Assembly: GCF_003063355.1 (NCBI RefSeq)
Contig: NZ_NESH01000007.1
Coordinates: forward strand, 62,001 to 126,000
Length of the DNA stretch: 64,000 nucleotides
Source: Limnohabitans sp. Bal53
GTDB lineage: Bacteria > Pseudomonadota > Gammaproteobacteria > Burkholderiales > Burkholderiaceae_C
Direction: 5' to 3'
Below the pieces are notes generated by a model. It had not been told where the DNA came from and did not search any database. It was given only the letters and a program-made list of their open reading frames with translations. Position numbers and translations under genes: made by a program. Positions 31,551 through 57,661 of the stretch are shown here, one piece after another; within the stretch, counting starts at the first letter, position 1, and every line of letters starts with the position of its first letter.

Positions 31551-31655
31551 GGTCTAGGCTGGCAGGACATGCTGTAGTGAACAAATGCCAAGGATAGCGG
31601 ATTTGGATGACAGGCCACCGACGCCCCGCCTGCGTACGGCCGTCACCCCAATCGC

Positions 31656-32402
31656 TCAAGGCCCGCGCGAGGTGTGGCGGGCATCGCGCACGCCCTGGCG
31701 GATTTCTTGCACCGTGGCCAACCACTGGCGGAATTGGTGGGCCTGCATTTTGAGCTGGTAGTCCAACTCGGCCATTTGCTCTTGCATCAGACCACTGAGC
31801 TGGCTGTCCAGTGTCGCTTGCGGCAATGACAGATAAGCCTCGCTCTCGCTGCCATCGCGCTGGACGGCGGCACCGGCGTGGCGCGCGATCTTGAGCATGG
31901 CCACGTTTTCGCTCAGCGCATGGATGAACAACAGGTTCACCCCCTGGTTGCGCGCGTGCATCACCGCATGGCCAAACAGTTTGGCCCCCAGGCCCTTGCC
32001 ACGCTGGCGAGGCGAGACCGACACGCCAAACTCGGCGCAAGTGGCCCATTGCGGGTCGACCGAATAGGCCAAGTGCGCCATGGCCACCAGCTCCAGGCGG
32101 CGATTGAAAACCCCAAAAATCTCGTCTCGCACAAAGTTCAGGCCCTGCACATAGCGGTCAATTTGCTCGTCGGTGGCGGCGTAGCCAAAGCGCAGATAAC
32201 GGTCTTGGGTGGGCAGGGCCTGCAAATGCCGCACGATGCGCGGCTTATGACGCGGTGAGAGCGAGCGGATAGGCACCCAGCTGAAACTCTTGCGGCCCCC
32301 TGCTGCTGACGGCCCTTTATGGGCTGCGTCAAACACGCTTCGCCAAAGCTGGCGAAGCCGCGAAGTGAATCGGTTGGTACGCGTGTCAGAAGGGGAGTTC
32401 AT
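31656..32402 (-). CDS. GNAT-family N-acetyltransferase
   Basis: A 248-aa protein with one GNAT domain (about residues 45-205). The acetyl-CoA pyrophosphate-binding motif is visible as VSVSPRQRGKGLGAKLFGHA (about residue 135), preceded by AMAHLAYSVDPQWATCAEFGV and followed by INLLFIHALSENVAMLKIA-like strands. The C-terminal 45 residues are helical and Gln-rich. The ATG at 32402 is preferred; the open frame runs much farther upstream antisense to fadD, which is an artefact. Acceptor unknown. Divergent from fadD. Confidence 0.85.
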   Translation of the reverse strand: MNSPSDTRTNRFTSRLRQLWRSVFDAAHKGPSAAGGRKSFSWVPIRSLSPRHKPRIVRHLQALPTQDRYLRFGYAATDEQIDRYVQGLNFVRDEIFGVFNRRLELVAMAHLAYSVDPQWATCAEFGVSVSPRQRGKGLGAKLFGHAVMHARNQGVNLLFIHALSENVAMLKIARHAGAAVQRDGSESEAYLSLPQATLDSQLSGLMQEQMAELDYQLKMQAHQFRQWLATVQEIRQGVRDARHTSRGP

Positions 32403-32561
32403 GTCGACGCCTAGGGTTAACCCCATTTTGCACCGATTTGCCTGGCCCTGAACCACACAGGTTTTGTCGCCTGTGAGACCGCCAAGCCCACCACTCAGGA
32501 CTTGCCCTGTGTTGGCCACTGCGGGAGCTGGTGACAATGCAGCTCTACAGGAGACAAGCGC

Positions 32562-34247: not shown

Positions 34248-35167
34248 GCTCATCCTGCACATTGCCGCCAGGCGTGCGCGTGTTCGAACGCGGCTGGCTG
34301 TCGGCCAACAATGTGCTGCTGACGGACGCGCAAAGCACCACCTTGGTCGACAGCGGCTACGTCACCCACCAGGCCCAAACCCTGGCCCTGGTGCAGCACG
34401 CCCTGCAGGGCCGAACGCTGGACCAACTGGCCAACACCCACCTGCACAGCGACCACTGCGGCGGCAACCAGGCCCTGCAAGCGCATTACCCGGCCCTGAA
34501 AACCTGGATCCCGCCGGGCCTGTCACTGGCTGTGCAGCATTGGCGCGAGGACGAGCTGAGCTACCAACCCACTGGCCAGAACTGCCCCGCCTTTGCCTTC
34601 ACCGGTTTGCTGCATCCGGGCAGTACCCACCGCTGGGCCGACATGGACTGGCAAGTGCATGCCGCTCCCGGACATGACCCGCACTCGGTGATCTTGTTTG
34701 CGCCCGAACACCGCCTGCTGATGTCGGCCGATGCGCTCTGGCAAAACGGCTTTGGTGTGGTGTTTCCCGAATTGGCGGGCGTGGCCGCCTTTGACGAGGT
34801 GGCAAAAACACTGGACCTGATCGAGCAACTCGATCCGGCCACCATCATCCCGGGACACGGCGCGGTCTTCACCGAAGTGGCTCCTGCACTGGCCCTGGCC
34901 CGCAGCAAACTCGAAAGCTTTGCGCAAAACCCCGAGCGACATGCACGCTACGGAACCAAGGTCCTGCTCAAATTCAAATTGCTCGAATGGGGCCAAATCT
35001 CGCGTGCCGAATTCAGCGACTGGGCCACCAAGGTGCCCTACATGCGCGAGCTCCACCAGCGCTTTGGCCAAGACCACAGCCTCCAGACTTGGCTGGACAT
35101 GATGCTGGCCGAGCTGACGCGCAGCGGTGCCATGCAAGAGGTGGGTGGCGTGTTGCACGACGCTTGA
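34244..35167 (+). CDS. Metallo-beta-lactamase-fold hydrolase
   Basis: A 307-aa MBL-fold hydrolase. The metal-binding motif is NTHLHSDHCGGN (about residue 65), with AAPGHDPHSVILF (His, about residue 142), LLMSADALWQNGFG (Asp) and IIPGHGAVF (His, about residue 205). The ATG at 34244 overlaps the fadD stop, so it is co-translated. An upstream start within fadD is rejected because the sequence there is just fadD in another frame. Possibly a thioesterase or lactonase acting with FadD; unproven. Confidence 0.86.
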   Translation: MSSSCTLPPGVRVFERGWLSANNVLLTDAQSTTLVDSGYVTHQAQTLALVQHALQGRTLDQLANTHLHSDHCGGNQALQAHYPALKTWIPPGLSLAVQHWREDELSYQPTGQNCPAFAFTGLLHPGSTHRWADMDWQVHAAPGHDPHSVILFAPEHRLLMSADALWQNGFGVVFPELAGVAAFDEVAKTLDLIEQLDPATIIPGHGAVFTEVAPALALARSKLESFAQNPERHARYGTKVLLKFKLLEWGQISRAEFSDWATKVPYMRELHQRFGQDHSLQTWLDMMLAELTRSGAMQEVGGVLHDA

Positions 35168-35192
35168 ATCCAAAAGGCTCAGCCCAAAAACA

Positions 35193-35222
35193 AAGCCCCT
35201 CAGGCCGAAACCTGAGGGGCTT
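35193..35222 (-). terminator. Rho-independent terminator, bidirectional, stronger on minus strand
   Basis: A 12-bp perfect stem AAGCCCCTCAGG / CCTGAGGGGCTT with a 6-base loop. On the minus strand it is followed by TTTGTTTTTG, so it ends the tRNA transcript; on the plus strand it also closes the fadD-MBL unit but without a T-run. Confidence 0.85.
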
Positions 35223-35226
35223 GATC

Positions 35227-35302
35227 TGGAGCGGGAAACGAGGCTCGAACTCGCGACCTCAACCTTGGCAAGGTTGCGCTCTACCAACTGAGCTATTCCC
35301 GC
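35227..35302 (-). tRNA. tRNA-Gly (GCC)
   Basis: A complete 76-nt tRNA with encoded CCA. Acceptor GCGGGAA pairs with TTCCCGC; the D-loop AGCTCAGTTGGTAGAGC, anticodon loop with GCC (in CCTTGCCAAGG) and T-loop GAGTTCGAGCCTC are intact. It is the last gene of a minus-strand tRNA cluster. Confidence 0.97.
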
Positions 35303-35313
35303 AAACATCACTT

Positions 35314-35390
35314 TGGCGGAGTGGACGGGACTCGAACCCGCGACCCCCGGCGTGACAGGCCGGTATTCTAACCAACTGAACTACCACTCC
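35314..35390 (-). tRNA. tRNA-Asp (GTC)
   Basis: A complete 77-nt tRNA with encoded CCA. Acceptor GGAGTGG pairs with CCACTCC; anticodon loop CTGTCAC gives GTC; T-loop GGTTCGAGTCCC intact. It lies 11 bp upstream of tRNA-Gly on the same strand. Confidence 0.97.
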
Positions 35391-35416
35391 TGGCAGTTTT
35401 CTCGTCATGAACCGAG

Positions 35417-35461
35417 TGGCTCCTCAACCTGGGCTCGAACCAGGGACCTACGGATTAACAG
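35417..35461 (-). other. 3' fragment of tRNA-Asn, probable attachment-site remnant (island left end)
   Basis: On the minus strand this stretch reads CTGTTAATCCGTAGGTCC, then a perfect T-arm and the acceptor 3' strand TTGAGGA-G-CCA. That is tRNA-Asn from the anticodon loop (GTT) to CCA. The 5' half is missing: the bases expected to form the anticodon stem read ATTT instead of CGGA, and no D-arm follows. Tyrosine recombinases commonly cross over in the anticodon loop-to-3' end of tRNA genes and leave exactly this piece at one end. The orientation predicts that the intact tRNA-Asn lies to the right, beyond the island. Confidence 0.8.
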
Positions 35462-35761
35462 AAATCCAGGCTCGTGGAATACCTATATAAATCAATGACT
35501 TATGAGTGAAAATTTTGAACGTGTAATATTTCGTGTAATTGACCAAAAATTGTAAATTACAATTTTTCCAGCACTTTCGTAGATTTTGCAGTCGGCGCTG
35601 TCACTCTGCTGGTGAAAAGTTAGACGCTTGGCTTGGGGCTCGAACCAGTCATGGGCAAAGTTTGACAACACACTCCCGGTTTAAGGGTTTGCCCCTCGTT
35701 TTCGTCGCCTTGCTTGTGTTAATTTCGGGTTTCGGTTTGACGCCAATACACCGGATACACC
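35462..35761. other. AT-rich non-coding stretch at island border
   Basis: No convincing gene. Base composition is clearly more AT-rich than the flanks for the first 120 bp. It contains a 23-bp perfect palindrome (35545-35567; arms AAAAATTGTAA and TTACAATTTTT around one A) and two copies of CGTGTAAT (35520, 35532). These could be recombinase-arm sites or the remains of an integrase end; neither can be shown. The last 60 bp are the upstream region of the lipoprotein fragment. Confidence 0.5.
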
Positions 35762-36090
35762 ATGAAATTTTCAATGAAACGAAGCGCGGCTTATGTGGCC
35801 GCAACCTTTGCCGCACTGACTGCGGCCGGCTGTGCCAGCAATTTGCCCGCGCCACCCTCAAGCCCGACCGCCTGCGCCGGGCTGAACGGTATCGCGATTG
35901 CGCCACAAGCCATTGGCATGCCCACCACAGGCGCGGTTGTCACAAGTGCCGTCGTTGTTCCCGCTGCTGGCACAGGCGTGGCGGCGGTGGCTGAGTACTG
36001 CAAGGTGCTGGGCGAAATCAACCCGGTCGGCCGCCAATACCCGCTTCAAGGTAGTCCAAATTCATGAGTTGATGTGCCGACCAGAGTGAC
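35762..36090 (+). pseudogene. Truncated, frameshifted tannase/feruloyl-esterase lipoprotein
   Basis: The frame from 35762 encodes MKFSMKRSAAYVAATFAALT with a lipobox (AAGC), then GLNGIAIAPQAIGMPTTGAVVTSAVVVPA and EYCKVLGEINPV, which is the N-terminus of tannase/feruloyl-esterase-family secreted proteins (normally over 500 aa). It stops after 101 codons. After INPV the homology jumps one frame (AANTRFKV, matching the family's next segment) and is lost within about 15 codons. So there is one frameshift plus loss of the catalytic body. It lies inside the island border and is probably a relic of recombination. Confidence 0.7.
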
Positions 36091-36199: not shown

Positions 36200-36589
36200 T
36201 CAGGCGGCTGCGCAATCGGAGCTGGTCTTGGGTCCGGCCACGGGGCGTGTCTCGTCAATGGCGTGACACGCCAGCTCGGCGGCATTAAGCGACACCTGTC
36301 CATCTTCTACTTTGACCGCAAATTTCGGCGTGCAGCCTTCGTCCGGAGCTGCGGCCTGACCAGTGCACAGGCCAATGGTCCAGTTGTGCAGCGGGCAGGC
36401 CACGCTGGTGCCAAACACAATGCCCTGTGACAAGGGTCCGCCCTTGTGCGGGCAGCGGTCCAGCAGGGCGAAGACTTCGTTGTTGTCGTTGCGGAATACG
36501 GCCACGTCCAATCCCTGGGTGCGCGCCACGCGCCGTGAGCCCAGAACGGGGATGTCTTCAACGCGGCAGATGGTGGTCCATTCATTCAT
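36200..36589 (-). CDS. nirD: NirD-like Rieske [2Fe-2S] protein
   Basis: A 129-aa Rieske-domain protein of the nitrite reductase small-subunit (NirD) type. The cluster ligands are DRCPHKGGPLSQG (CxH, about residue 46) and VACPLHNWTIGL (CxxH, about residue 65). NirD normally accompanies the large siroheme subunit NirB, which is absent here, so this may be an electron carrier or a displaced paralogue. The C-terminal 25 residues (ACHAIDETRPVAGPKTSSDC) are not conserved. It follows the degenerate MBL gene by 85 bp on the same strand. Confidence 0.8.
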   Translation of the reverse strand: MNEWTTICRVEDIPVLGSRRVARTQGLDVAVFRNDNNEVFALLDRCPHKGGPLSQGIVFGTSVACPLHNWTIGLCTGQAAAPDEGCTPKFAVKVEDGQVSLNAAELACHAIDETRPVAGPKTSSDCAAA

Positions 36590-37801: not shown

Positions 37802-38854
37802 TCACAACACAGCGTTGAACACAAACCCCACGATCAGGATGCCGGTGGCGACCACGCCCACAAAGGTGGCAATGAGCCGGATCTTGAGCACCTTGCGCAA
37901 GATGACCATTTCGGGCAGCGACAATGCGATCACGCTCATCATGAAAGCCAGCACCGTGCCCAGCGCTGCGCCCTTGGCCAGCAGGGCCTGCACGATCGGG
38001 ATGACACCGGCCGCATTGGTATACATGGGCACACCGATCAGCACCGCCAGCGGTACCGACCACCAGGCGTCCTTGCCCATGAAGCTGGCCATGAAGTCCT
38101 GCGGCACCCAGCCGTGAATGCCAGCACCGATGGCGATACCGGCCAGGATGTAGGGCCAGACCTTGCCCACGATCTCGCGCACAGAGGCAAAACCGGCCTG
38201 CACACGGTCGGCCAGCGTGGTTTCGGCCGCTTCAAAACCGGCCGACATCTTGGGCATGTCGCGCACCCAGTCTTCCAGGTGCGCCTCCATCTTCAGCCGG
38301 CCGATGATCCAGCCTGCCACGATGGCCACCGACATGCCCAGGCCCAGGTAGAGCGCGGCGATCTTCCAGCCGAACATGCCGAACAGCAGCGCCAGCGCTA
38401 CCTCGTTGACCATGGGCGCGGAAATCAGGAAAGAAAAAGTCACACCCAGCGGCACGCCCGCCTGCACGAAGCCGATGAACAGCGGCACGGCCGAGCAGGA
38501 GCAGAAAGGCGTGACGATCCCCAACGATGCGGCCATCACATTGGCCACGCCTTCGGTGCGCCCCGCCAGCAATGCGCGGGTGCGCTCAGGCGTGAAATAG
38601 CTGTTGACCATGCCCATGACAAACACCACACCGGTCAACAACATCAAGACCTTGGGTGTGTCATAGAGGAAAAACTGCAGCGCGCCGCCCAGATGACTGT
38701 CGCGCTCCACAGGCAAAGCGGCGACCATTGCTTCCGATCCAGGCAACAAAGTCTGGTACAGGCCGAGCCAAACGAGCGCAGCCAGAGTGAGAAACCAAAC
38801 GGGTTGACGAAGCGGCCAACTCAGCGAAGGCAAGGGAGTAGTCGAGGTGTTCAT
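37802..38854 (-). CDS. ArsP/DUF318-type permease
   Basis: An integral membrane protein of 350 aa with about eight helices. The family signature TPFCSCSAVPLFIGFVQAG (about residue 120) and FLISAPMVNEVALAL (about residue 145) are intact. A long cytoplasmic loop (KMEAHLEDWVRDMPKMSAG) separates the two halves, and a second copy of the fold follows (GVPMYTNAAGVIPIVQALLAKG). The branch containing ArsP exports organoarsenicals; the family is broad, so arsenical export is inferred from the neighbouring arsenite genes. It lies 162 bp downstream of an ECF sigma gene that may control it. Confidence 0.82.
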   Translation of the reverse strand: MNTSTTPLPSLSWPLRQPVWFLTLAALVWLGLYQTLLPGSEAMVAALPVERDSHLGGALQFFLYDTPKVLMLLTGVVFVMGMVNSYFTPERTRALLAGRTEGVANVMAASLGIVTPFCSCSAVPLFIGFVQAGVPLGVTFSFLISAPMVNEVALALLFGMFGWKIAALYLGLGMSVAIVAGWIIGRLKMEAHLEDWVRDMPKMSAGFEAAETTLADRVQAGFASVREIVGKVWPYILAGIAIGAGIHGWVPQDFMASFMGKDAWWSVPLAVLIGVPMYTNAAGVIPIVQALLAKGAALGTVLAFMMSVIALSLPEMVILRKVLKIRLIATFVGVVATGILIVGFVFNAVL

Positions 38855-39016
38855 ACCGCAGAAGACGATGCGGTACGCAAAAGGACGCAGACTTCAACAA
38901 AAAAAGTTGGTGAAGGACCACCACGGCAATGGCAACGGCACGCGGCAGGCCTCTTGCTCCAGAGAAAATCCCTCCCGGAATCAGTCGCAGGCTTCGCCCA
39001 AAGGCGCCATTGAGCC

Positions 39017-39574
39017 TCAGCCAGCGCCAGAGATCGAAGAGCTTCTCGGGACAAAATCGCTCACGTGACCGGCGTCGTCAAAGCGGACCTGACAAGCCAC
39101 CGTCATGCGTTCACGCATCCTTTTTCTCGCTCGCTGGATGCGCGATTTGGCTGCAGAAAGGGAAATATTCTGACTGAGGGCATAGGTCGCCTGGTCCATG
39201 CCCTGCAAGTCACACAATTCGATGGCTTCTCGGTCCTGGGCATCGAGTTCATCCAGCACTCTGGGCAGACAAGCCTGTGCGAGTGCATCGACGCTGTCGA
39301 CGGCAACTTCGGGCAACGCCAGTTGTTCAATGTCGTCCGGCAGGGGCACTTGGCGCGCGCCAACCCGCAACCGGTCTGTCAATGTGTTTCGCGCCACCTC
39401 AAAAAGCCAGGCTCGGGGGTGCTCGACCTGCTCGAGCCCAGCACCTTGCCGCAGGGCCTTCAAGAACACATCCTGCAATATGTCGTCGACCTCTTGCGCA
39501 GCGGGCGCACGCGAAAGAAGCCAGCGGCGAACCTCGGTTTCATGCCGCGCCCACAGGAGCAGTAAGTTGTTCAT
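39017..39574 (-). CDS. ECF-type RNA polymerase sigma factor (SigZ-like)
   Basis: A group IV sigma factor of about 185 aa. Region 2 is EVDDILQDVFLKALRQ with HPRAWLFEVARNTLTDRLR, and region 4 is LDELDAQDREAIELCDLQGM with TYALSQNISLSAAKSRIQRARKRMRERM. The C-terminal tail CQVRFDDAGHVSDFVPR resembles the short extension of SigZ proteins. Start taken at MNNLLLLWARHE (39574); an ATG six codons upstream is also in frame. No anti-sigma gene is adjacent, so control is unclear. The permease, MBL and NirD-like genes follow on the same strand. Confidence 0.85.
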   Translation of the reverse strand: MNNLLLLWARHETEVRRWLLSRAPAAQEVDDILQDVFLKALRQGAGLEQVEHPRAWLFEVARNTLTDRLRVGARQVPLPDDIEQLALPEVAVDSVDALAQACLPRVLDELDAQDREAIELCDLQGMDQATYALSQNISLSAAKSRIQRARKRMRERMTVACQVRFDDAGHVSDFVPRSSSISGAG

Positions 39575-39680
39575 AGCGTGCCTATCGTTCAATCTGGTTG
39601 CAATTCCAATGCGTGCCCATTGTTGCCGAGCATTGTCTCAAGTGATTCATCCCATTCCATTGAATCCACGCCCCGCCTAT

Positions 39681-40988
39681 TCAGGACTGGATGGCCAGCT
39701 TCTTCATTTTTTCCCACAGTGTCTTGCGGCTGATGCCCAGCACGTCGGCGGTCTTTCCAACGCTGCCGTCACAATGCTGCAAAGCCTTCTGAATGTGCGA
39801 ACGCTCCACCTTCTCGACCACGCGCTGCAACGACACGATCCCACCTTCTGAAGCTTCGGCGGCCTGCTGTGAACTTGAAGCGTGACCGTCAGGCAAATCC
39901 AGCAGCCCTCCGTCGCTGAGCACCACTGTTTCCTCCAGGAACGAACGGAGCTCCCGTACATTGCCGCGCCACTCCCGACGCATCAGGTCGCGCAAGAAGG
40001 GTTCGGACATGGCCAGAGGGCGCCCCTGCTCCACCACGATTTGTGCCAGCAGCTTCTCGGTCAGCCAGCGGATGTCTTCCGGCCGCTCGCGCAGCGGCGG
40101 TAGCTCGATTTTGATGACCGCCAGCCGATAGAAGAGGTCTTCCCGGAAGGTGCCCGCGTTCATGTCCGCATACAGGTCGCGGTTGGTGGCGGCCAGGATG
40201 CGAAAGTCGCTTTGGGTGGTGCGCTCCGCCCCAATGCGAAAGAAGCACTTTTCCTGCAATGCGCGCAGCAATTTGGCCTGCATGCTGGCCGGCAATTCGC
40301 CCACCTCGTCCAGGAACAGGGTGCCATTGTGAGCGCGCTCCAGATATCCTTTGTGCGTGCGCACGGCTCCAGAAAATGCGCCCTTTTCGTAGCCAAAGAA
40401 CTCCGCCTCCAGCATGGTTTCAGGAATCGCCGCACAATTCACCGCCACGAACGCACCCTTGACTGCCTTGGGATCCAGGCTGTGGATGAGTTGAGCCGCC
40501 ACCTCCTTGCCCACGCCGGATTCTCCGGTCAGCAGCACCGACACCTTCTGGACGGCCACCTTGTGCAATATGGCCTCCACACGGCGCATGGCCACGGACA
40601 CGCCGAGAAGTGCCTCGTCATCGTGGGCGACCGACAGGTTCGCGGCGGTACGGATCTTGAAAATGAGACTTTCGATATCGAAGGGCTTGGTGAGGTACTC
40701 CCGTGCGCCGGCACGAACCGCCGCCACGGCATCGTTGACGCTCCCGTACCCGGTCAGAAAGAACCACGGCAATGCCCGCACGGTGGCCGGCAAAGCCACG
40801 AACCATTCAGTCGCCAGTCCGTCGGGCAGTCGGACATCACTGACGACGGCCGAAGGCAGCGTGTCGAGCGCTTCGCGCGCCTCGCTGAGCCGGCGGCACC
40901 AGGTCACTTGCAGGCCCTCCAGCTCGAATCGTTGCAACAATGATTCGCCCATGATGGGGTCGTCTTCGATCAACAAAATAGTGGTCAT
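39681..40988 (-). CDS. aioR: AioR, sigma-54-dependent response regulator of arsenite oxidation
   Basis: NtrC-type activator of 435 aa: receiver domain (LLIEDDPIMGESLL; phospho-acceptor in VVSDVRLPDG about residue 50), AAA+ domain with Walker A GESGVGKEV, GAFSGA loop and Walker B GTLFLDEVGELP, and a Fis-type HTH at the C-terminus (VGKTADVLGISRKTLWEKM). GAFSGA in place of GAFTGA keeps the sigma-54 contact loop. The ATG at 40988 overlaps the aioS stop. Identification as AioR rests on the aioX-aioS-aioR order next to aioBA. Confidence 0.92.
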   Translation of the reverse strand: MTTILLIEDDPIMGESLLQRFELEGLQVTWCRRLSEAREALDTLPSAVVSDVRLPDGLATEWFVALPATVRALPWFFLTGYGSVNDAVAAVRAGAREYLTKPFDIESLIFKIRTAANLSVAHDDEALLGVSVAMRRVEAILHKVAVQKVSVLLTGESGVGKEVAAQLIHSLDPKAVKGAFVAVNCAAIPETMLEAEFFGYEKGAFSGAVRTHKGYLERAHNGTLFLDEVGELPASMQAKLLRALQEKCFFRIGAERTTQSDFRILAATNRDLYADMNAGTFREDLFYRLAVIKIELPPLRERPEDIRWLTEKLLAQIVVEQGRPLAMSEPFLRDLMRREWRGNVRELRSFLEETVVLSDGGLLDLPDGHASSSQQAAEASEGGIVSLQRVVEKVERSHIQKALQHCDGSVGKTADVLGISRKTLWEKMKKLAIQS

Positions 40989-42430
40989 GACTGGCTTTCT
41001 GGCGCCTCCCGGTTCGGCACTTCGAACAGGAGGCAGGTGTGTTGTGTTTCGAAGGTGTCGAGCTCGAACCGACCTCGCAGGTGACTGGCCAGTTCTTGGC
41101 ACACCCACAGGCCGAAGCCGCGCGGGTCTTTGCCACTCTCGGCGGCCAACGTGCGCTTGAAACGCTCTTGGCTCAGCAAAGGACCGCTGTTGCTGATACA
41201 GAACCGCACCCGGGTTTCGTCGGCCTGCAACCGAGCCAACACCGTGCCGTTGTCCCCCGCCGCCTTGATCGCGTTGAGCAACAGGTTGAGCATGACCTGA
41301 CGCAGCGGCGCTGATGGCACACGAAGCGCAGATTCAACCTCGACCTGGAATCGAATCACAACGCTCTGCTTGTCGGCCGTGCCCTTCACCAGCGTCACGA
41401 TGTCTTCCAGGTCGCCCGGCTCCAGCGGCCGGTCTTCGATGCGGGCCTGCGGCAACAGAGCAGCCACGGTGGTGCGGATCTGCTGCAGACCACGGTCGAG
41501 TAGGTCGATGGTTCGTAAACGGATCGTCTCTGTGCCGCCGTGCAGGCGCAGCGTCTGGGTGGCGGTCAGCATGCCGGCCAGGGGGTTGTTGATCTCGTGC
41601 GCGACGGCGGCGGTCATCTTGCCTACGGCAGCCAGGCGTTCTGCCGACAGGGCACGCTCCTCTGCCGCCTTGCGGCGTTCGAGTTCACCCATCAGCTGCT
41701 CAACCGCATCGCCGATGCGACTCAGTTCAGGGTCTGTGGTCTTGGGCACTTCGTCGCGCAACACGCTTCGATCGTCACGACCGATGCGCTCGATCACCGC
41801 CACCAGCAGGCCTACGGGGCGGGCCATTCGCTTGCCCACCCACCATCCCAGCGGCCCGAGCAAGGTGACGGCCAGCACAATGCTAATCAGCGCAGTACGC
41901 GCCAGCGATGACCAGTCCGGCGCAAATGCGGCCGACTCCACTTCGGTGAACACGAAGCCCAGTGTCTGGCCGTCCTCGCTGCGGATGGGGTCCAGCAGCA
42001 CCACCGAACCATCGGGCAAATCCAGCTGTTGCCGCCGATCGACCTCCATCGCCAACAGCATAGGCTGCTCGCGCCATGGCTCACCCAGCACCTGCTGCCC
42101 GGTCGCCAGCTTCACCGGATCCGAAGCGGCAAATACACTGCCATCCGGAGCGAGGATGGCAAGTCTGGCCAGTTCGACGTCCGCACCCGGCACAAGTTGG
42201 GCCGTGTCGCGCAACAACGCGAACACCCGCCAGGTGTCGTCGGCCGCCAACAGAGGACGCACCTGGGCAATGACCAGAACCACGGCACGGTCCAGCAGAG
42301 ACAGGGTGTCGCGGCGAGCGTTGTTCGCCTGGACCCGCGCGGTAATGGCCGTGACCAGCAGGGCCGCCAGCAGCACGGCCAGGGAAAGTCCCAGCGGAAT
42401 CTGGACCCGGTAGGGCAAACGCCGGAGCAT
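40985..42430 (-). CDS. aioS: AioS, arsenite-responsive sensor histidine kinase
   Basis: Membrane sensor kinase of 481 aa. A transmembrane helix near the N-terminus (IPLGLSLAVLLAALLVTAIT) is followed by a periplasmic domain (about residues 30-180), a second helix (SIVLAVTLLGPLGWWVG), a HAMP-like segment, the H-box AAVAHEINNPLAGMLTATQ (phospho-His about residue 287) and an ATPase domain with MLNLLLNAIKAA (N-box) and GKDPRGFGLWVCQ (G-box). The start shares one base with the aioX stop (TGATG), so sensing protein and kinase are translated together. Confidence 0.92.
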   Translation of the reverse strand: MLRRLPYRVQIPLGLSLAVLLAALLVTAITARVQANNARRDTLSLLDRAVVLVIAQVRPLLAADDTWRVFALLRDTAQLVPGADVELARLAILAPDGSVFAASDPVKLATGQQVLGEPWREQPMLLAMEVDRRQQLDLPDGSVVLLDPIRSEDGQTLGFVFTEVESAAFAPDWSSLARTALISIVLAVTLLGPLGWWVGKRMARPVGLLVAVIERIGRDDRSVLRDEVPKTTDPELSRIGDAVEQLMGELERRKAAEERALSAERLAAVGKMTAAVAHEINNPLAGMLTATQTLRLHGGTETIRLRTIDLLDRGLQQIRTTVAALLPQARIEDRPLEPGDLEDIVTLVKGTADKQSVVIRFQVEVESALRVPSAPLRQVMLNLLLNAIKAAGDNGTVLARLQADETRVRFCISNSGPLLSQERFKRTLAAESGKDPRGFGLWVCQELASHLRGRFELDTFETQHTCLLFEVPNREAPESQS

Positions 42431-43299
42431 CAGCCCCCCACCCCGCTGCCGGGCACCTGCTGAGCTTGCCGGCGAATCGAGTCGAAGAGGCTGGCTTCAC
42501 CAGGCGCGAAGCCGGTCAGGTTCAGGGATGACAACAGGTCCCGGCCGACCTCGTCGTCGCCCATGCGCAACAACGCCCGGCGCAGCGTTTGCATCTGGGG
42601 ACGCTCTTGCTCCCGTCGAACGACCAGCGGAGGAAATCCGAAGGGCTCTGATTTCCAAATGACCTCGGTCTTGGCAATAGCAGGCATGCCCTGAGCGCGC
42701 ATGGTCTCCCACACATAGCCGTCGATGGAGCCGGCCTGCGCCAGCCGTGCCGCAACGGCTTCGGCCACGTTGCGGTGCCCATGGGTGAAGAAGCCCCGCT
42801 TGAGATCGCGTGTGGAGACACCGGCTTTGGCCAGCTGCGCCTGCGCCACCAACCAGCCCGAGTTGGACAGAGGGTCGGAATAGGCCAGTACCCGCCCTTT
42901 TAGGTCGGCCCAGCCCTGCACCTCCGGGGCAGGCGTCTTCGAGCGGATCAGATAGGCCTGGTAGTACGGTTGCCCCTGGTACAGCGGGACGGCGAGCAGG
43001 GACAGCTCACTTTCGAAGCGCACGAAGGGATAGCCACAGATCCAGGCTGCGTCGACCTGTCCCGAGAACAGCAGGTCCAGAATGCTCTGGTAAGACTCGC
43101 GGGCCACGAACTCGACCTCGATACCAACCCGGCTGCTCAGGTAGCGCCCCCAGCGCGACAGGAATGCCACCTGATCGGCCAGGATCACGGGCGTGAGACC
43201 GATGCGCAGCCGGTCCGCCCCCCAGCTCGGCAAGGACACCGCGGCCGTGGCTGCGCCGCAAAGGCATGTGGTCAGACAACGTCTTCGATTCACGGGCAT
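42430..43299 (-). CDS. aioX: AioX, periplasmic arsenite-binding protein
   Basis: A PhnD/TctC-style periplasmic binding protein of 289 aa, with an N-terminal twin-Arg signal (NRRRCLTTCLCGAATAAVSL). In other organisms AioX binds arsenite through a Cys and signals to AioS. A conserved-type Cys is seen in DAAWICGYPFVR (residue 88 here), the best candidate for the arsenite ligand; other Cys lie only in the signal peptide. Segments such as GRVLAYSDPLSNSGWLVA and HRNVAEAVAARLAQAGS fit the phosphonate-binding fold. First gene of aioXSR, divergent from aioBA. Confidence 0.9.
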   Translation of the reverse strand: MPVNRRRCLTTCLCGAATAAVSLPSWGADRLRIGLTPVILADQVAFLSRWGRYLSSRVGIEVEFVARESYQSILDLLFSGQVDAAWICGYPFVRFESELSLLAVPLYQGQPYYQAYLIRSKTPAPEVQGWADLKGRVLAYSDPLSNSGWLVAQAQLAKAGVSTRDLKRGFFTHGHRNVAEAVAARLAQAGSIDGYVWETMRAQGMPAIAKTEVIWKSEPFGFPPLVVRREQERPQMQTLRRALLRMGDDEVGRDLLSSLNLTGFAPGEASLFDSIRRQAQQVPGSGVGG

Positions 43300-43348: not shown

Positions 43349-43404
43349 CACCCATAGAACAAACCCTGAGTGTGCAAGCCCTTGTTTTTAAAAGGTTTCA
43401 GTCT

Positions 43405-43420
43405 TGGCACGGCCATTGCA
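43405..43420 (+). promoter_or_regulatory. Sigma-54 promoter of aioBA
   Basis: TGGCAC-GGCCA-TTGCA matches the -24/-12 consensus (TGGCAC-N5-TTGCA) at every position. GG falls at 43406-43407 and GC at 43418-43419. It is 38 bp upstream of the aioB start. The neighbouring AioR is a sigma-54 activator, so the two features support each other. Confidence 0.93.
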
Positions 43421-43457
43421 TAAAGGTGTCGCCTTTTGTTCAAAATTAGGAGACAAC

Positions 43458-43982
43458 ATGGACGACGTCAAAATTGGCCGCCGCTTCTTTCTGAAGTCCG
43501 GTGGCGCCGCTGCGGCCGTAGCTGGTTCGGTGATCATTCCCATCCGCAACGCCAGTGCTGCCACCCCGCCTGCGCCCGGTAAAACAACCCTGCCCTACCC
43601 AAAGAAGGCGGTCGGTTCGATCAAGGGGCTGCCGCTGAACCAGGCGGTGAGTTTTGCCTACCCCGACGACAGCTCGCCATGTCTGGCCATTCGAATGGGT
43701 TCGCCAGTACCCGGCGGCGTTGGTCCCAACAGCGACATCGTGGCCTACAGCTCGTACTGCACACATATGGGCTGCCCAGTGAGCTACGAGCCAGGCACCA
43801 GGACCTTCAAATGCGGTTGTCACTTCTCCATCTTCGATCCCGAAAACAGCGGTCAGATGGTGACCGGCCAGGCCACCGAAGACCTGCCGCGCATCCTGCT
43901 GGAATACGACGCCAAGACCGACAGCGTGCACGCCGTCGGTGTCGACGGTCTGATCTACGGCCGCCAGTCCAACATCCTGTAA
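43458..43982 (+). CDS. aioB: Arsenite oxidase small (Rieske) subunit
   Basis: Rieske [2Fe-2S] subunit of arsenite oxidase, 174 aa, exported with AioA. The Tat signal [20 protein letters not shown] is at the N-terminus. Cluster ligands are YCTHMGCPV (CxH, about residue 100) and [11 protein letters not shown] (CxxH, about residue 118); the extra Cys in each motif would form the disulfide seen in some Rieske proteins. A strong ribosome site AGGAGA lies 4 bp before the ATG at 43458, which is preferred to an upstream ATG in the promoter. It is 10 bp upstream of aioA. Confidence 0.95.
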
Positions 43983-43992
43983 GGAGAGCAGC

Positions 43993-46476
43993 ATGACCAC
44001 CCAGATCAATGACCGCATCGCGCTGCCCCCGAAGGACGCGCAAAAGACTAACATGACCTGCCACTTCTGCATCGTCGGATGTGGCTACCACGCCTACAAG
44101 TGGGACCACAACACCGAAGGCGGCCGCGCCCCGGACCAGAACGCACTGGGCCTGGACTTCCGCACCCAGCTGCCTCCCTTCGCCACCACCTTGACCCGGG
44201 CGATGACCAACACCATCACCGACAAGGGCGGCAAGAAGTGGAACATCATGATCGTTCCTGACAAGGAGTGCTCAGTGAACAGCGGCCTCTCCAGCACCCG
44301 CGGCGGCAAGATGGCCAGCTATATGTACACACACGACGGCCTAGGGCGCGAGCGCCTGAAGAATCCGCGCGTGAAACGCGGCGACCAATGGTTGGACACC
44401 AGCTGGGAACAGGCCCTGGCACTGTACGCCGGCCTGACCAAAAAGATCCTCGACACCGATGGCCCGGACGGCTTGTTCTACGACTGCTTCGACCACGGCG
44501 GTGCGGGTGGTGGATTCGAGAACACCTGGGGTACCGGCAAGCTGATGTTCAGCGCACTGAAGACCCAGATGGTGCGCATCCACAACCGACCGGCCTACAA
44601 CTCCGAGTGCCACGCCACCCGGGATATGGGCGTGGGCGAGCTGAACAACAGCTATGAAGACGCCCAGCTCGCCGACTGCATTCTGGTCACCGGCGCCAAC
44701 CCTTATGAGACCCAGACCAACTACTTCCTGAACCATTGGGTGGCCAACCTCTCCGGCTCCACGGTGGACAAAAAGAAGAAGTGGTTTCCGGGCGAGTCGG
44801 CCGCTGCAGCCAAGGTCATCATCGTGGACCCACGCCGCTCGGCCACGGTCGCCATCTGCGAGCAGGTAGCGGGCAAAGAAAACGTGCTGCACCTGGACAT
44901 CCAGCCCGGCACCGACACCGCACTGTTCAACACGCTGTTCACCTACGTGGTGCAACAGGGCTGGACCGCCAAGGAGTTCATCGCCCAACACACGAGCGGA
45001 TTTGACGATGCGGTCAAGACCAACCACATGAGCCTGGAAGACGGCGCCAAGGCCACAGGCCTGACCGTGGCCCAGATCCAGCAGGCCGCCGACTGGGCCT
45101 ACAAACCCAAGGCCAGCGGCCACCGCCCGCGCACCTTCCACCCGTACGAGAAGGGCATCATTTGGGGCAATGACAACTACGTCATCCAGAGTGCGCTGGT
45201 CAGTCTGGTGCTGGCAACCGAGAACGTCGGGCGCCGTGGCACCGGCGTGTGCCGCCTGGGCGGTCACCAGGAGGGCTACACACGCCCGCCGTATCCGGGC
45301 AAGGGCAAGATCTACCTGGACCAGGAAGTCATCAACGGCAAGGGCCTGATGTACACACTGTGGGGCACCAACCCCTACCAGACCACGCTGAATGCAGAGC
45401 AGCACCGCATGGTGCTGAGCAAGCGCGCCAAGATCGTGGACGAGGCCATGGCCCGCGCCCGTGGAGCCAGCGTTGAACAAATGGTGGAGGTGATTTACAA
45501 CGCCTGCAAGAACCAGGGCGGCATGTTCGTGGCAGCCATGAATCTCTACCCCACGCAGCTCGCTGACGACGCACACCTGCTGTTTCCGGCCACCCACCCG
45601 GGTGAAATGAACCTGACCTCCATGAACGGCGAGCGTCGCATGCGTTTGTCTGAAAAATTCATGGACCCGCCCGGTTCGGCCAAGCCCGACTGCCTGATCG
45701 CCGCCGACATCGCCAATACCTTGAAGGCGATGTACCAGAAAGACGGCAAGGCGGACATGGCCAAGCGCTTCGACGGCTTCAACTGGAAGACCGAAGAAGA
45801 CGCCTTCAACGACGGCTTCCGCCGCGCGGGCCGCCCCGGCGTGGAACCTATTGATAGCCAGGGTGGCCCCACCGGCTACCTGGCCACCTACGAACTGCTG
45901 CGCAAGGCAGGCAACAACGGCGTGCAGCTACCGATCAAGGAGGTCAAGGACGGCAAGCTGATCGGCACCGAGATGGAATACGCCGATGGCAAGTTCAGCA
46001 CCGGCGACGGCAAGGCTCAATTCAAGCCAGCGCCGTGGAACGGCCTGCCCAAGATGGTGGCGGATCAGAAGGCCAAGTACAAGTTCTGGATCAACCAGGG
46101 CCGCGCCAACGAGGTCTGGCAGACCGCCTACCACGACCAATACAACAGCTTCGTGCGCGACCGTTATCCGATGGCCTACATCGAGATGAACCCGGACGAT
46201 GCCAAGGCACTGGGTGTAGCGGCAGGTGACGTGGTCGAGATCTACAACGACTTCGGCAGCACCTACGCCATGGCCTACCCGCTCAAGGCGATCAAGCCGG
46301 GGCAGACCTTCATGCTATTCGGCTACATCAAGGGCGTGGCTGGTGACGTGGTGACCTCCTGGGTGGACCGCAACGTGGTGCCGTACTACAAGGGCACCTG
46401 GGGCGGCGTCAAGCGCGTGGGCAGCGTGGACGACTACAAGAAGTCGATCTCGTTCAAGGACCGCCGGTTCGTTTGA
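43993..46476 (+). CDS. aioA: Arsenite oxidase large molybdopterin subunit
   Basis: Catalytic subunit oxidising arsenite to arsenate in the periplasm with bis-molybdopterin guanine dinucleotide; 827 aa, the family length. The [3Fe-4S] motif is [10 protein letters not shown] (Cys 23, 26, 30) without a fourth Cys, which is a hallmark of AioA within the DMSO-reductase family. No signal peptide is present; it is expected to be carried with the Tat-exported AioB. Characteristic segments: [59 protein letters not shown]. Ribosome site AAGGAG before the ATG. Confidence 0.97.
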
Positions 46477-47231: not shown

Positions 47232-48392
47232 ATGGGTGAGCCATTGCTTGCACGGGTGTTCCCCCTGATAGACCATCGCCAGTACGCCCAACAGCAGTCG
47301 GCACAGTCCTTCGCGGATCCGTTGCCGACAGGAAATGTCCAAGATCGGCTTCAACGACCCTTGCGCGATCTGCGCATCAGCGTGACCGACCGCTGCAACT
47401 TTCGTTGCGCCTACTGCATGCCCAAAGAGGTGTTTGGATCCGACTACCCCTACCTCCCCCATTCGTCGCTGCTCAGTTTCGAAGAAGTCACCCGGGTGGC
47501 TCGGCAGTTTGTCGCCCTGGGCGTCAGGAAGATCCGTTTGACCGGGGGTGAGCCGCTGTTGCGCAAAAACCTGGAAGCGCTCCTGATCCAACTGGCCGAA
47601 CTGCGTACCTCTCAGGGTGAGGCGATCGACCTGACGATGACGACCAACGGCTCCCTGCTGGCCCGCAAAGCCAAGGCGCTCAAAGCCGCAGGACTGAACC
47701 GCGTCACAGTCAGTCTGGACGCACTGGACGACCGGGTGTTCAAGCGCATGAACGATGTGGACTTTCCGGTGGCCAAGGTACTGGAAGGCATCGAAGCAGC
47801 GCAAGCCAGCGGCATCACCAATATCAAGGTCAACATGGTGGTCAAGCGCGGCGTTAACGACCACGAAGTGTTGCCGATGGCGCGCTACTTTCAGGGCACT
47901 GGCGTGGCGCTGCGCTTCATCGAATTCATGGACGTGGGCTCCACCAACGGCTGGAACATGGACGCTGTGCTGCCCAGCGAAGAAGTGGTGCGCACTATCG
48001 CCGAACACATGCCCCTGGTTCACCTCCCCGCCAGCGCTGCGGGCGAAACCGCGCAACGCTGGGGCTATGCAGGGCCAAACGGTCAATACCTTCCATCTCT
48101 GGGCGAGATCGGCGTCATCAGCAGCGTCACCCAGGCATTCTGCGGTGATTGCAATCGTGCCAGACTGTCCACTGAAGGTCGCCTGTTCACCTGCCTCTTC
48201 GCAGGACAAGGCTTCGATCTGCGCCAGCTTCTTAGAAGCGCGGCCACAGCAGAAGATGAACAACTCGCCAGGGAAATCGCCACTGTGTGGCAACGGCGTT
48301 CAGATCGCTATTCGCAACTGCGAACACCATGGGCCGAACTTCCCGACAGGGCTGCCATACCGAAGCCTGAGATGAGCTACATCGGGGGTTAA
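47232..48392 (+). CDS. moaA: GTP 3',8-cyclase MoaA
   Basis: Radical-SAM enzyme of the first step of molybdenum cofactor synthesis, 386 aa. The SAM cluster motif is [16 protein letters not shown] (CxxxCxxC, about residue 55) and the C-terminal cluster is [19 protein letters not shown] (about residue 300); [14 protein letters not shown] is the SAM-binding GGEP motif. It ends EMSYIGG, the GG tail needed for activity. The first 38 residues before the family start are unusual; the true start may be later. Its place here fits the molybdenum need of AioA. Confidence 0.93.
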
Positions 48393-48460: not shown

Positions 48461-48844
48461 TTATGCCCCGATCAAACCGCCGTCGTTTTTGGTGATGACG
48501 ATGGTGGCCGAGCGCGGGCGCTTGCCGGCACCGTAGCCAGCATTGGCGGGCCATTGACTTTCGTACTTTTCCGGGTTGTTCACATCGGCCAAGGCTGAAG
48601 GTCGGACACCATCCACCACCCACAGCCACGCGATGGCTGCGCCGATGTACACGCCACCATAGGCCGCGTACACCCGCCCCGTGGCCGCACCATGCAAGGT
48701 GAGCAGCCAGGCGAACAGCGCCAGACTGACCACTGCCGGCAGCAGCAACCAAACTGAGCCTCCTTGGCGCAGCCACAACCAGGGCAGATAACAACCAACG
48801 ATCTCGGCCAACGCGGTGGCGACGTAAAGCAAAAAAGTGGTCAT
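48461..48844 (-). CDS. YnfA-like (UPF0060) membrane protein with replaced C-terminus
   Basis: A 127-aa protein whose first 82 residues match the YnfA/UPF0060 small membrane family closely ([52 protein letters not shown]). Normal YnfA continues with a fourth membrane helix (about 25 residues) and ends near residue 108. Here helix 4 is missing and a 45-residue hydrophilic tail follows ([20 protein letters not shown] and on). This is a topology-changing fusion or truncation. Function unknown. Divergence with the MerR gene is only 6 bp, both on the minus strand. Confidence 0.8.
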
Positions 48845-48850
48845 GGTCGG

Positions 48851-49288
48851 TCAGCGCGCAAGATGGGGATGGCACGCGCAGGCCTCGCCATGGGCGGCCG
48901 CCACCAATTCCTTGAGGATGCCGCAGTCTGTGCCATCGGTGTCACAACGGCCACAACTGGCCTTGAGTAGCACCAGTTGTTTCTCCAGCGCTCGCATACT
49001 CTGGAGACGTGCCCTGACTTTATCGATCTGTCCCTGGACCAGACCGTCCACATCCGGGTGCGGCTCGCCCGGCGCGTCCAGCGCAGTCAACAGTCGGCGA
49101 ATGTCAGCAAGCGGCATCTCAAGCGCTCGACAATGGCGAATGAAAGCCAGGCGTTCCAGGTGGGTTCTCGCGTAGTCGCGATAGCCGTTACCGTGGCGAG
49201 CCGGCGCGGGCAAGAGGCCTTGTTTTTCGTAGTACCGAATGGTGTCCACCTCCACACCTGTGGCATGGGCGAGTGCTTTGATGCGCAT
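48851..49288 (-). CDS. MerR-family metal regulator, CadR/PbrR-like
   Basis: A 145-aa MerR regulator. The HTH is MRIKALAHATGVEVDTIRYY; a dimerisation helix (VQGQIDKVRARLQSMRALEK) precedes a Cys-rich end, ASCGRCDTDGTDCGIL, then CACHPH. In CadR/PbrR proteins the pattern D-x-P-x-x-x-C places a key metal-binding Cys about residue 77; here it reads DAPGEPH, that is, His. The C-terminal Cys pair is retained. Start taken at 49288; an in-frame ATG nine codons earlier exists. It is divergent from the CDF pump gene with a MerR-type promoter between them. Confidence 0.85.
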   Translation of the reverse strand: MRIKALAHATGVEVDTIRYYEKQGLLPAPARHGNGYRDYARTHLERLAFIRHCRALEMPLADIRRLLTALDAPGEPHPDVDGLVQGQIDKVRARLQSMRALEKQLVLLKASCGRCDTDGTDCGILKELVAAAHGEACACHPHLAR

Positions 49289-49319
49289 GAAGTCTTCTCT
49301 GTTCAACTGGGACAAGGGC

Positions 49320-49350
49320 TTGACCCTGAAGTGGCTCCAGGGTTTTCAAT
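49320..49350 (+). promoter_or_regulatory. MerR-type promoter/operator of the CDF pump gene
   Basis: TTGACC (49320-49325) and TTCAAT (49345-49350) are spaced 19 bp, the long spacer typical of MerR-activated promoters. The dyad ACCCTG (49323) / CAGGGT (49338) lies between them, as in CadR/PbrR/ZntR operators. Confidence 0.88.
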
Positions 49351-49372
49351 ACAGCATTCTGAAGGAGTTTCC

Positions 49373-50044
49373 ATGTCTTCCAACTGTTGTGAACACGAAT
49401 GCCCCGCCCCCGGTCAAATCGTCAACCTGGCACGCTACCGCCGCGTGCTGTGGGTGGCACTCATCGTCAATGCCGCCATGTTCCTGGTCGAACTGGGCGC
49501 AGGCTTCAGGTCGGGCTCATTGTCCCTGCTCGCCGACGCCATTGATTTCGCCGGTGACGCGTTGAACTACGGCGTCTCGCTGGCGGTGCTGGCTTCGGCG
49601 CTGGCCTGGCGGGCTCGGGCGGCCGTGCTCAAAGCGCTCAGCATGATGGGCTTTGGTGTTTATGTTTTGGCCAGCGCGCTGTGGGCCGTTTGGAACGGCG
49701 GTGTGCCCGATGCGCCGACCATGGGTGTGGTGGCACTGCTGGCGCTGCTGGCCAACGTGTCGGTGGCCTGGCTGCTTTACGCTTTTCGCGAAGGCGACGC
49801 CAACATGCGCAGCGTCTGGTTGTGCTCGCGCAACGACGCCATTGGCAACGTGGCGGTGTTTCTGGCGGCATTGGGCGTCTTTGGCACCGGCACCGCCTGG
49901 CCCGACCTGTTGGTGGCAACATTGATGGCGGGCCTGGCGCTGCATGGAGGCTGGCAAGTGCTGAGGCAAGCGCGGGGTGAACTGGGGGAGCAAAAAATCA
50001 AGGCCCACGATCATGAATTGAGAAACCATGACCATGCACACTGA
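49373..50044 (+). CDS. CDF-family (cation diffusion facilitator-like) metal transporter
   Basis: A 223-aa membrane protein with six helices. It has the CDF metal-site segment SLLADAIDFAGDALNYG (DxxxD pattern on helix 2, about residue 50) and VWLCSRNDAIGNVAVFLA (helix 5, about residue 140, where NDAIGN matches the HD/ND-xxxD ligand pattern), and ends HDHELRNHDHAH. The C-terminal cytoplasmic domain of larger CDFs is absent. N-terminal CCEHECPAP adds Cys/His. It is the first gene under the MerR-type promoter, with ribosome site AAGGAG. Confidence 0.88.
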   Translation: MSSNCCEHECPAPGQIVNLARYRRVLWVALIVNAAMFLVELGAGFRSGSLSLLADAIDFAGDALNYGVSLAVLASALAWRARAAVLKALSMMGFGVYVLASALWAVWNGGVPDAPTMGVVALLALLANVSVAWLLYAFREGDANMRSVWLCSRNDAIGNVAVFLAALGVFGTGTAWPDLLVATLMAGLALHGGWQVLRQARGELGEQKIKAHDHELRNHDHAH

Positions 50045-50441
50045 ACCCACAACGTCGGTGGCTTTTGACGCACCCACCTTCGAACGTTTGCGCGGGGCGT
50101 ATCTTCGGGTTGATCGCAGGGATCTAACGCAGGCTTGGCATTTGCTCGAAGCGCTGCACGTGCTCGGGCAGACGAGGTTGGTCCCCCATGCGCAAACGCA
50201 TGGACTGATGCTCGCGCTGGCCTGGCGGACGCACAACCTGGCCGAAGTGAATGGTCAGCTAATGCGGCTGTTGCTGGTGCCTTTGGGACACTTGCTGGGC
50301 CGCCTGCCGCTGGGCAACACCGGCCGATCGAACGTCGGGGCGTTTCGGCCTATGCCGGTAGCGCCTGAGCTGCTGGCCACGATCAGGGCGTTCCAAGGGC
50401 TTGAGATGCCGCGAGTTGCGGGCGGCGGCTCCGGTCGATAG
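50028..50441 (+). CDS. DUF3703-type protein
   Basis: A 135-137 aa soluble protein: WHLLEALHVLGQTRLVPHAQTH, LALAWRTHNLAEVNGQLMRL and GRLPLGNTGRSNVGAFRPMP are the blocks I associate with the DUF3703 family that accompanies CDF and other metal-efflux genes. His residues are frequent in the first half. Starts at 50028 or 50034 and overlaps the CDF gene end by 11-17 bp. Function not known. Confidence 0.75.
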   Translation: MTMHTEPTTSVAFDAPTFERLRGAYLRVDRRDLTQAWHLLEALHVLGQTRLVPHAQTHGLMLALAWRTHNLAEVNGQLMRLLLVPLGHLLGRLPLGNTGRSNVGAFRPMPVAPELLATIRAFQGLEMPRVAGGGSGR

Positions 50442-56846: not shown

Positions 56847-57037
56847 CCCATCACGATTGACCGCCATCGGGATGTTGACCCACCGACTGGGTTTGGCCGA
56901 GAGCGCGAATCGCCTGAGCCGCTCAAAAACTGACCAACCGCCCAGCCATCTGCATCTTCCAGACATTTGATTTAAAACAACGACCTTTCGCCCCGCCAGC
57001 GCATGCTGTGTGTCCCTCAACTCGATGGGAGACCATC

Positions 57038-57661
57038 ATGGAAACCACCGGCAATTCCGTTCATCACGAGCCTTGGAACAAGGGAAAGATCGTTGGACAG
57101 AAGGCACCCTTCAAACTGAAAGACATCTGGGCGTTGCGCGTCCGCCTGCAGATGGAGGGTCGGGTCCGCGAGCTCGCACTTTTCAACCTCGGTATCGACA
57201 GCAAACTGCGAGGGTGCGACCTCGTCGCGCTCAAAGTCCGCGACGTCTGTCATGGCGAGCAACTGGCCACCCGAGCGATCGTCATGCAGCACAAGACCAA
57301 GCGCCCAGTTCAGTTCGAGATCACGGCCGCTACCCGAGACGCTCTGCAGGCATGGATCAAGCAGGCTGCGCTGAAGTCGGATGACTTCATCTTCCCCAGC
57401 CGGCTCCACGATTCACCCCATCTTGGGACCCGGCAGTACGCCCGTATTCTTGGCCACTGGGTAGGGGACCTGGGACTGGACCCTGCCGAATATGGGACGC
57501 ATTCCATGCGAAGGACCAAGGCGACGCTGATCTATCGGCGCACCAAGAACCTGCGTGCTGTGCAGTTGCTGCTCGGTCACTCCAAGCTTGAGTCGACCGT
57601 GAAATACCTGGGCATCGAGGTTGATGACGCCCTCGAAATCTCCGAGCAAACGGAAATCTGA
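57038..57661 (+). CDS. Short tyrosine recombinase (catalytic domain only)
   Basis: A 207-aa tyrosine recombinase. It holds almost only the catalytic domain: first Arg in KLRGCDLVALKVRDV (about residue 50), HSMRRTKATLIYRR (HxxR, about residue 153) and VQLLLGHSKLESTVKYLG with the nucleophile Tyr (about residue 190). The usual N-terminal core-binding domain is missing, as in a known class of short plasmid and island integrases. Start 57038 has a strong ribosome site (GGGAGA). It is followed by a terminator. Whether it catalysed insertion at tRNA-Asn is unknown; it is internal to the island. Confidence 0.88.
   Translation: METTGNSVHHEPWNKGKIVGQKAPFKLKDIWALRVRLQMEGRVRELALFNLGIDSKLRGCDLVALKVRDVCHGEQLATRAIVMQHKTKRPVQFEITAATRDALQAWIKQAALKSDDFIFPSRLHDSPHLGTRQYARILGHWVGDLGLDPAEYGTHSMRRTKATLIYRRTKNLRAVQLLLGHSKLESTVKYLGIEVDDALEISEQTEI

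Follow-up and report, generated by a model that had tools for sequence, protein, structure and literature searches.

An element carrying arsenite oxidase was, almost certainly, inserted into a host tRNA-Asn gene of a Limnohabitans chromosome, and the window analyzed here (64,000 nucleotides from Limnohabitans sp. Bal53) spans the left junction of the resulting island. For the arrangement as a whole, the best explanation, with a probability of roughly two in three, is that the element recombined at tRNA-Asn with a piece of donor chromosome as its right end, a piece that would have been taken up by imprecise excision. The observations that this explanation joins are a split tRNA, a conserved arm, a duplicated and diverged flank, and an apparently hybrid tRNA. 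Islands marked by a tRNA gene are a known kind of element; this one is an unusual variant because of its donor-chromosome end, hybrid tRNA, and missing integrase.

The split tRNA-Asn gene and the element arm

The junction is bounded on its left by three tRNA features of the host:

35227..35302, minus strand: tRNA-Gly (GCC), intact, host (ARAGORN)
35314..35390, minus strand: tRNA-Asp (GTC), intact, host (ARAGORN)
35417..35461, minus strand: 3' part of the host tRNA-Asn (nucleotides 32 to 76), the left attachment core (attL core)

The minus strand of the last of these reads as tRNA-Asn from nucleotide 32, the first base of the anticodon loop, to the CCA end, and the native 5' half is absent. ARAGORN retrieved tRNA-Gly and tRNA-Asp as the only tRNA genes of the window, and the same two genes were the Rfam matches above gathering near the junction; a YrlA match over the tRNAs (28.6 bits, with gathering at 69) was taken as chance. 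A 30-base piece of the core has a single match in the window at up to three mismatches and none in 100 shuffles. The first-pass annotation had described this half tRNA beside intact tRNA-Gly and tRNA-Asp genes, together with an abrupt change from core metabolism to arsenic and metal genes plus a recombinase on the right, and both descriptions are borne out. The G+C content is nearly unchanged across the junction (0.59 to 0.64 before and 0.57 to 0.63 after, slightly lower from 56 kb on), and by this measure the island is almost the same as the host.

The window sits on contig C26 of a 3.64-Mb draft genome (28 contigs, 99.96% complete, 0.46% contamination), in which 16 contigs are readable and 12 of the 28 read as N; beyond the core on the right, C26 runs for another 33.6 kb. 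In this genome the 45-mer core occurs, at up to three mismatches, in three places, which are the window, contig C12 (45 of 45 bases, within an intact minus-strand tRNA-Asn), and contig C3 (44 of 45 bases, within an intact minus-strand Gly-Asp-Asn-Phe array). The identity between the window and C12 covers exactly the 45 core bases, with similarity stopping on both sides.

Relatives present the uninterrupted site. The protein of fadD, a neighbor of the junction, was used as a query, and the best 80 of 573 loci were taken. The closest among these belong to records named Limnohabitans, Comamonadaceae, and Burkholderiales, with one Akkermansia, and 5 of the best 80 of 573 carry the complete Gly-Asp-Asn-Phe array. 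Within the genus, the core is present in 71 of 90 genomes (up to three mismatches), and its places collapse to 95 distinct contexts, of which 70 contain an intact tRNA-Asn, 14 a split tRNA-Asn with the family arm described below (window included), and 6 a split tRNA-Asn with another arm; 5 lie too near a contig end to be judged. In all nine fetched relatives with the Gly array (G008, G009, G012, G015, G016, G020, G029, G034, and G043) the tRNA-Asn is intact, and all nine lack AioA, as had been anticipated for relatives without the arsenic genes. No relative with the same half tRNA at this place and no arsenic genes was encountered: tRNA-Gly or tRNA-Asp adjoins the split tRNA-Asn in none of the 13 relatives' sites with the same arm, and among the 95 contexts the only split tRNA-Asn adjoining tRNA-Gly is that of the window. 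The left flank of the window is 91.9% identical to the closest relative (L014), and the match of the window to L014 ends at position 35461. When the host flanks are rejoined at the core (window to 35461 and C3 from 5237), they match L014 unbroken, at 91.8% over 6 kb. The intact genes of the relatives, the rejoined flanks, and the arm of the element support the earlier proposal of an integrase-type insertion at the 3' end of a tRNA gene.

Beyond the core, on its right, lie three features:

35462..35571: attL arm of the element, present also at 13 further split tRNA-Asn sites in the genus
From 35520 and from 35532: two CGTGTAAT direct repeats in the attL arm
35545-35567: 23-bp inverted repeat in the attL arm

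By sequence comparison, an element has a defined end directly right of the core. The arm was compared with 14 sites besides the window, and 33 to 40 of its first 46 bases are the same in 13 of them (40 of 46 in L184); the best of 20,000 random places reaches 23 of 46. The remaining site, L161_13942, matches at 12 of 46 and does not belong to the family. Repeats of the CGTGTAAT type number two in 10 of 14 arms and one in the other 4. The inverted repeat, with stems of 8 to 11 bp and a 1-base center, is found at the same place in L126, L133, L134, L136, L143, L144, L145, L154, L161, L175, L178, L180, and L184, and its symmetry is kept while its sequence varies: the stems are of four sequences (one in two lengths) among 14 arms, and the mean longest stem is 9.6 over 15 sequences versus at most 5.3 in 300 shuffles. 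A dimer binding site and a hairpin are candidate roles for it. A pattern search located the core-arm joint in 12 of 90 genus genomes, including that of the window.

In two genomes (G018 and G019) the other end of the arm-bearing element is present on the same contig: it is another full core, and a tyrosine integrase of a 461-aa type lies directly inside it. An integrase of this type also lies next to an intact tRNA-Asn in G007, G058, and G072, the G072 copy being clipped by the contig start. This integrase is about 125 bp from the end in G007, G019, G058, and G072; in G018 it lies 114 bp inside a core. The G019 protein contains PF00589. A different integrase adjoins the arm in G062 and G070, the G062 copy being a fragment at a contig end. 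In the readable part of the window's own genome the family integrase was not found (best match 34% identical, on another contig), and contigs C5 and C3, which are discussed in the next section, contain no PF00589 match. A tblastn search of the island for a remnant, with two family integrases as queries, gave three hits for one (E values of 0.2 to 0.4) and none for the other, and a remnant was rejected.

The genus-wide comparison shows tRNA-Asn to be a recurrent landing site of islands in Limnohabitans. At least two cores in the same direction are seen in G018 C2 (L133, L134, and L135), G019 C2, G044 C12, G079 C34, G024 C29, and G020 C12, and the same cation-efflux-like ORF stands next to the arm in G007, G019, and G044. 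In the window, a T-arm-like stretch, GGGGCTCGAACCA, at about 35637 to 35656 (some 175 bp beyond the core on its right), may be the decayed end of a tRNA or a chance resemblance.

The probable right end on contig C3

A second copy of the core had been expected on the same contig. There is none on C26, and the other end of the island is likely on contig C3, the linkage between C26 and C3 being indirect. An intact minus-strand tRNA-Asn with an identical 3' segment had also been predicted at that end; the gene is present (C3:5192-5267) and is followed by tRNA-Phe and host-like genes, but its segment is one base short of identity. The genes beyond tRNA-Phe, named by eye, are a response regulator (NtrX-like receiver, below the model cut-off) and a sensor kinase. 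A second close copy of this response-regulator gene is absent from the genome (the next best is at 37%), and C3 to the right of tRNA-Asn was therefore taken as the host's own continuation; its nearest relative to the right of the core is L014, at 89.3%.

An exact copy on the predicted strand is offered by the tRNA-Asn on C12, which is nevertheless scarcely credible as the end of the island and was rejected as an undisturbed core locus. Both of its flanks are collinear over 3 kb with the one-contig genome G009 (L105, 84.5%), its neighbors look like core genes, and the PF00589 match closest to it on C12 is at a distance of about 170 kb. Five further loci (L101, L116, L119, L124, and L125) are collinear with C12 on the 5' side of tRNA-Asn and on the other side not or partly, as expected because tRNA-Asn is a frequent insertion site. 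Several 27- to 30-bp stretches of window positions 4909 to 5100 are nearly or fully identical to a C12 place (L006), perhaps a short dispersed repeat family.

To the left of tRNA-Asn, C3 does not present the plain element end that had been expected but carries 5.1 kb of the chromosome of another lineage. Positions 110 to 5236 are a second copy of window positions 30314 to 35461 at 85.7% identity, with a truncated lnt', corC', fadD', tRNA-Gly', tRNA-Asp', and the Asn' 3' segment. To the left of the core, C3 matches L021, a further Limnohabitans record, at 99.1% and L014 at 86.6%, and its affinity changes over at the tRNA array. The lnt' gene on C3 retains only the first approximately 99 of 523 residues, whereas lnt in the window is full length (523 residues) and passes the lnt model. 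At about C3:109-121, lnt' is fused to a thiolase-family gene (about residues 246 to 393 of 394, counted from the first ATG).

This joint leads to contig C5, as C3:1-127 equals C5:1-127 reversed; the 16 readable contigs have 32 ends, and this is their sole head-to-tail overlap. C5 carries a CoA and transport cluster, and the degradation cluster joined to lnt' continues the island. The C26 end and C5 have homologues in G048 that are collinear and about 2.6 kb apart (77% identity); this synteny is the one link between the C26 end and C5, and the last 500 bp of C26 have no second match in their own genome. The synteny and the C3/C5 overlap together lead to a likely order for the island: the remainder of C26 from 35462 onward, an unseen stretch of about 2.6 kb, C5 reversed, and C3:1-5236, for a total of about 55.7 kb (33.6 + 2.6 + 14.4 + 5.1).

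The left part of C3 might instead be contamination or belong to a chimeric contig, the real right end being unassembled or unreadable. In line with this are the different lineage, the separate contigs, the contig break at the joint, the part of the assembly that reads as N, and the nature of the genome, which is either an isolate or a metagenome bin. It is distinctly unlikely, since the thiolase/lnt' joint lies inside C3 and within the C5 overlap, the G048 homologues of C5 and the C26 end are collinear, and the reported contamination is low; plain contamination, in particular, is made improbable by the C5 joint and the G048 synteny. Seemingly duplicate contigs in draft genomes can be genuine island ends, which calls for caution.

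C26 and C3 share an identical stretch of 167 bp (35224-35390), which is longer than the apparent assembly overlap of 127 bases, and the pairing of left and right flanks therefore rests on read pairs and host typing. The whole arrangement is read from one draft genome with the left and right ends on separate contigs. Over the 76 bp that precede the arm there is 1 difference from L014 and there are 8 from the donor-like L019, so that the host flank is tied to the arm; the matching spacer on C3 is ambiguous, with 5 differences to L014 and 6 to L019. If the flanks had been mispaired in assembly at the Gly-Asp stretch, the host array would be unbroken and the island would be a free circle of about 55.7 kb. 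The C26 island, C5, and the left part of C3 would indeed close up, and the identical stretch does exceed the overlap; the 76 bp before the arm, however, lie outside that stretch and are host-like. A free circle is a possible fit to the host typing, a poorer one than insertion, and we regard it as very unlikely.

The tRNA-Asn on C3 looks like a hybrid. Core position 10 is A in the window, as in the host-like L014, and G on C3, where a G-type 3' segment combined with an A-type 5' half leaves an A.C pair in the acceptor stem. From this mismatch and the mixed halves it follows that the exchange would have taken place between core positions 11 and 45, a run of 35 bp that is identical in both copies. 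As read from these bases, the crossover fell inside the 3' half of tRNA-Asn, an attachment site of the anticodon-loop type. About 5 kb of 86% homology, including the 167-bp identical stretch, was open to general homologous recombination. At core position 10 the donor-like L019 carries A rather than G, and the L021 record stops inside tRNA-Gly, short of the donor's own tRNA-Asn.

Origin of the island

In the explanation favored here, an element with arsenite oxidase and metal genes would have recombined with the tRNA-Asn of the host Gly-Asp-Asn-Phe array. The host's 3' segment would have stayed next to tRNA-Asp, as window positions 35417 to 35461, and the segment borne by the element would have formed, with the host 5' half, a full tRNA-Asn again, adjoining tRNA-Phe on C3. 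The right end would be the 5.1-kb chromosome piece from the other Limnohabitans lineage. The element would earlier have sat in the tRNA-Asn of this donor and would have been excised imprecisely, between lnt' and the thiolase gene, the excised circle gaining the donor's left flank and losing its own integrase end. The circle may then have entered the present host at its tRNA-Asn core, either through an integrase supplied in trans or through recombination on the short identity. The layout seen has this form, with donor chromosome joined to the core on one side and the element end absent on the other. A donor genome with the island intact, a circular form, and an integrase capable of acting in trans did not come to light. 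Such a prime-type origin, in which about 5 kb of donor chromosome was carried along, the integrase was lost, and a second lineage was entered at the core, is put forward tentatively from one draft genome, and we stop just short of calling it probable.

Its main rival is an ordinary insertion followed by a later replacement, in which L021-like DNA displaced the right end and the integrase, joined illegitimately at the thiolase gene and homologously at tRNA-Asn/Phe. This would account for the thiolase/lnt' joint, the missing integrase, and the donor-like 5.1 kb, and there is a precedent in the high-pathogenicity island (HPI) of E. coli, where a tRNA-Asn island and flanking backbone were moved by homologous recombination, as outlined in PMC2606025. 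Later replacement is unlikely, however, as it requires two independent events, and the homologous switch must land by chance in the very tRNA-Asn core that bounds the island on the left, despite kilobases of homology to the right.

Imprecise excision that takes flanking host genes and loses the far end of the element underlies F-prime formation and specialized transduction, and the movement of core chromosome with an excised element is familiar mainly from laboratory genetics. Unlike F-primes and transducing phages, the prime-type origin proposed here is inferred from a natural genome, with lineages about 14% apart at the locus. If it is true, the locus preserves, at nucleotide level, a natural case of core chromosome and tRNA genes crossing lineages with an island, and tyrosine-integrase islands could carry core and tRNA genes between species, to one fixed address. 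The excision of an ICE with adjacent chromosome is named as an alternative, and disfavored for its own data, in PMC13127887.

In the tRNA-gene islands described for Islander (PMC4383910), a displaced 3' tDNA fragment marks one end and a regenerated tDNA the other. The present island resembles them in its anticodon-centered attachment site and in the tyrosine integrases of its element family, and it differs from that description in that the family integrase was not found, the regenerated tRNA is mispaired, and a donor segment forms the right end. With the E. coli HPI at asnT it has in common a tRNA-Asn island traveling with donor backbone; in the account of PMC2606025 the donor flank replaces the recipient copy, whereas here it is kept alongside, as a diverged second copy in the island. 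The ssrA islands of Dehalococcoides, as presented in PMC3146451, likewise combine respiratory cargo, tandem islands, and a 3' repeat of an RNA gene with conserved adjoining bases, but have a serine recombinase at attL and a site in the tmRNA T-loop rather than in a tRNA anticodon loop. Among the literature matches listed, their titles and abstract openings gave no account of this island or of Limnohabitans tRNA-Asn islands.

Cargo of the island

The DNA between the core and the first cargo genes is AT-rich, and the part of the island inside the window presents the following features:

35762-36067: ORF, no Pfam family matched
36200..36589, minus strand: Rieske [2Fe-2S] protein, the first island gene with a family match
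37802..38854, minus strand: membrane permease with below-cut-off matches to the SaoE and SO_0444 efflux models
39017..39592, minus strand: sigma-70-family (ECF-like) sigma factor
39681..43299, minus strand: sigma-54-type response regulator, sensor kinase, and phosphonate-type binding protein, which we take to be aioR-aioS-aioX-like
43404..46476, plus strand: aioB and aioA, arsenite oxidase small and large subunits
47232..48392, plus strand: moaA, molybdenum cofactor synthesis
48461..50441: YnfA-family protein, cation-efflux (CDF) gene, and DUF3703 gene
57008..57661, plus strand: 217-aa tyrosine recombinase (PF00589), the sole PF00589 match on C26
58525..61444: HupE/UreJ protein, metal-sensing repressor, and MFS transporter with a His-rich tail

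The arsenite oxidase subunits score 1296.5 bits with the large-subunit model TIGR02693 (cut-off 359) and 189.6 bits with the small-subunit model TIGR02694 (cut-off 95.7). Further genes of the island encode a metallo-beta-lactamase-fold protein (between the Rieske protein and the permease), a nitroreductase (between aioA and moaA), DsbA/DsbB/SCO1-like proteins, and an SRAP protein. Past the window, C26 continues with an AlpA-type regulator and acyl-CoA genes; the ORF at C26:126110-126982 (L004:14110-14982), just beyond the window's end, has a C-terminal Phage_AlpA domain, typical of integrative elements. No relaxase or type IV secretion genes were found among the Pfam-scanned island proteins, which cover part of the ORFs of an island of which about 2.6 kb is unseen.

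AioA occurs in 1 of 90 genus genomes, that of the window (E ≤ 1e-100), and the island suggests a way in which a freshwater genus can acquire arsenite oxidation in a single step. It occurs in 19 of 399 genomes of the bacterial family, that of the window included (E ≤ 1e-250), and is 95 to 96% identical in two other genera of this family. Arsenic genes on betaproteobacterial islands are a likeness to the Thiomonas arsenic islands as described in PMC4589449. The module at 37802-48591, with the aio regulatory and structural genes and moaA, is collinear with contig C19 of G366 (L318 and L319), a genome of another genus in which pieces of the module are 65 to 88% identical in DNA, AioA is 96% identical, and the surroundings are different. 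In the fetched stretches, the core was absent beside the aio genes of G366, G130, G114, G317, G417, G148, and G235 (up to five substitutions). A relative of the 217-aa recombinase, with 79% DNA identity, lies near the aio genes of another genus (G417; L324:2297-2952), and this recombinase may therefore travel with the arsenic module.
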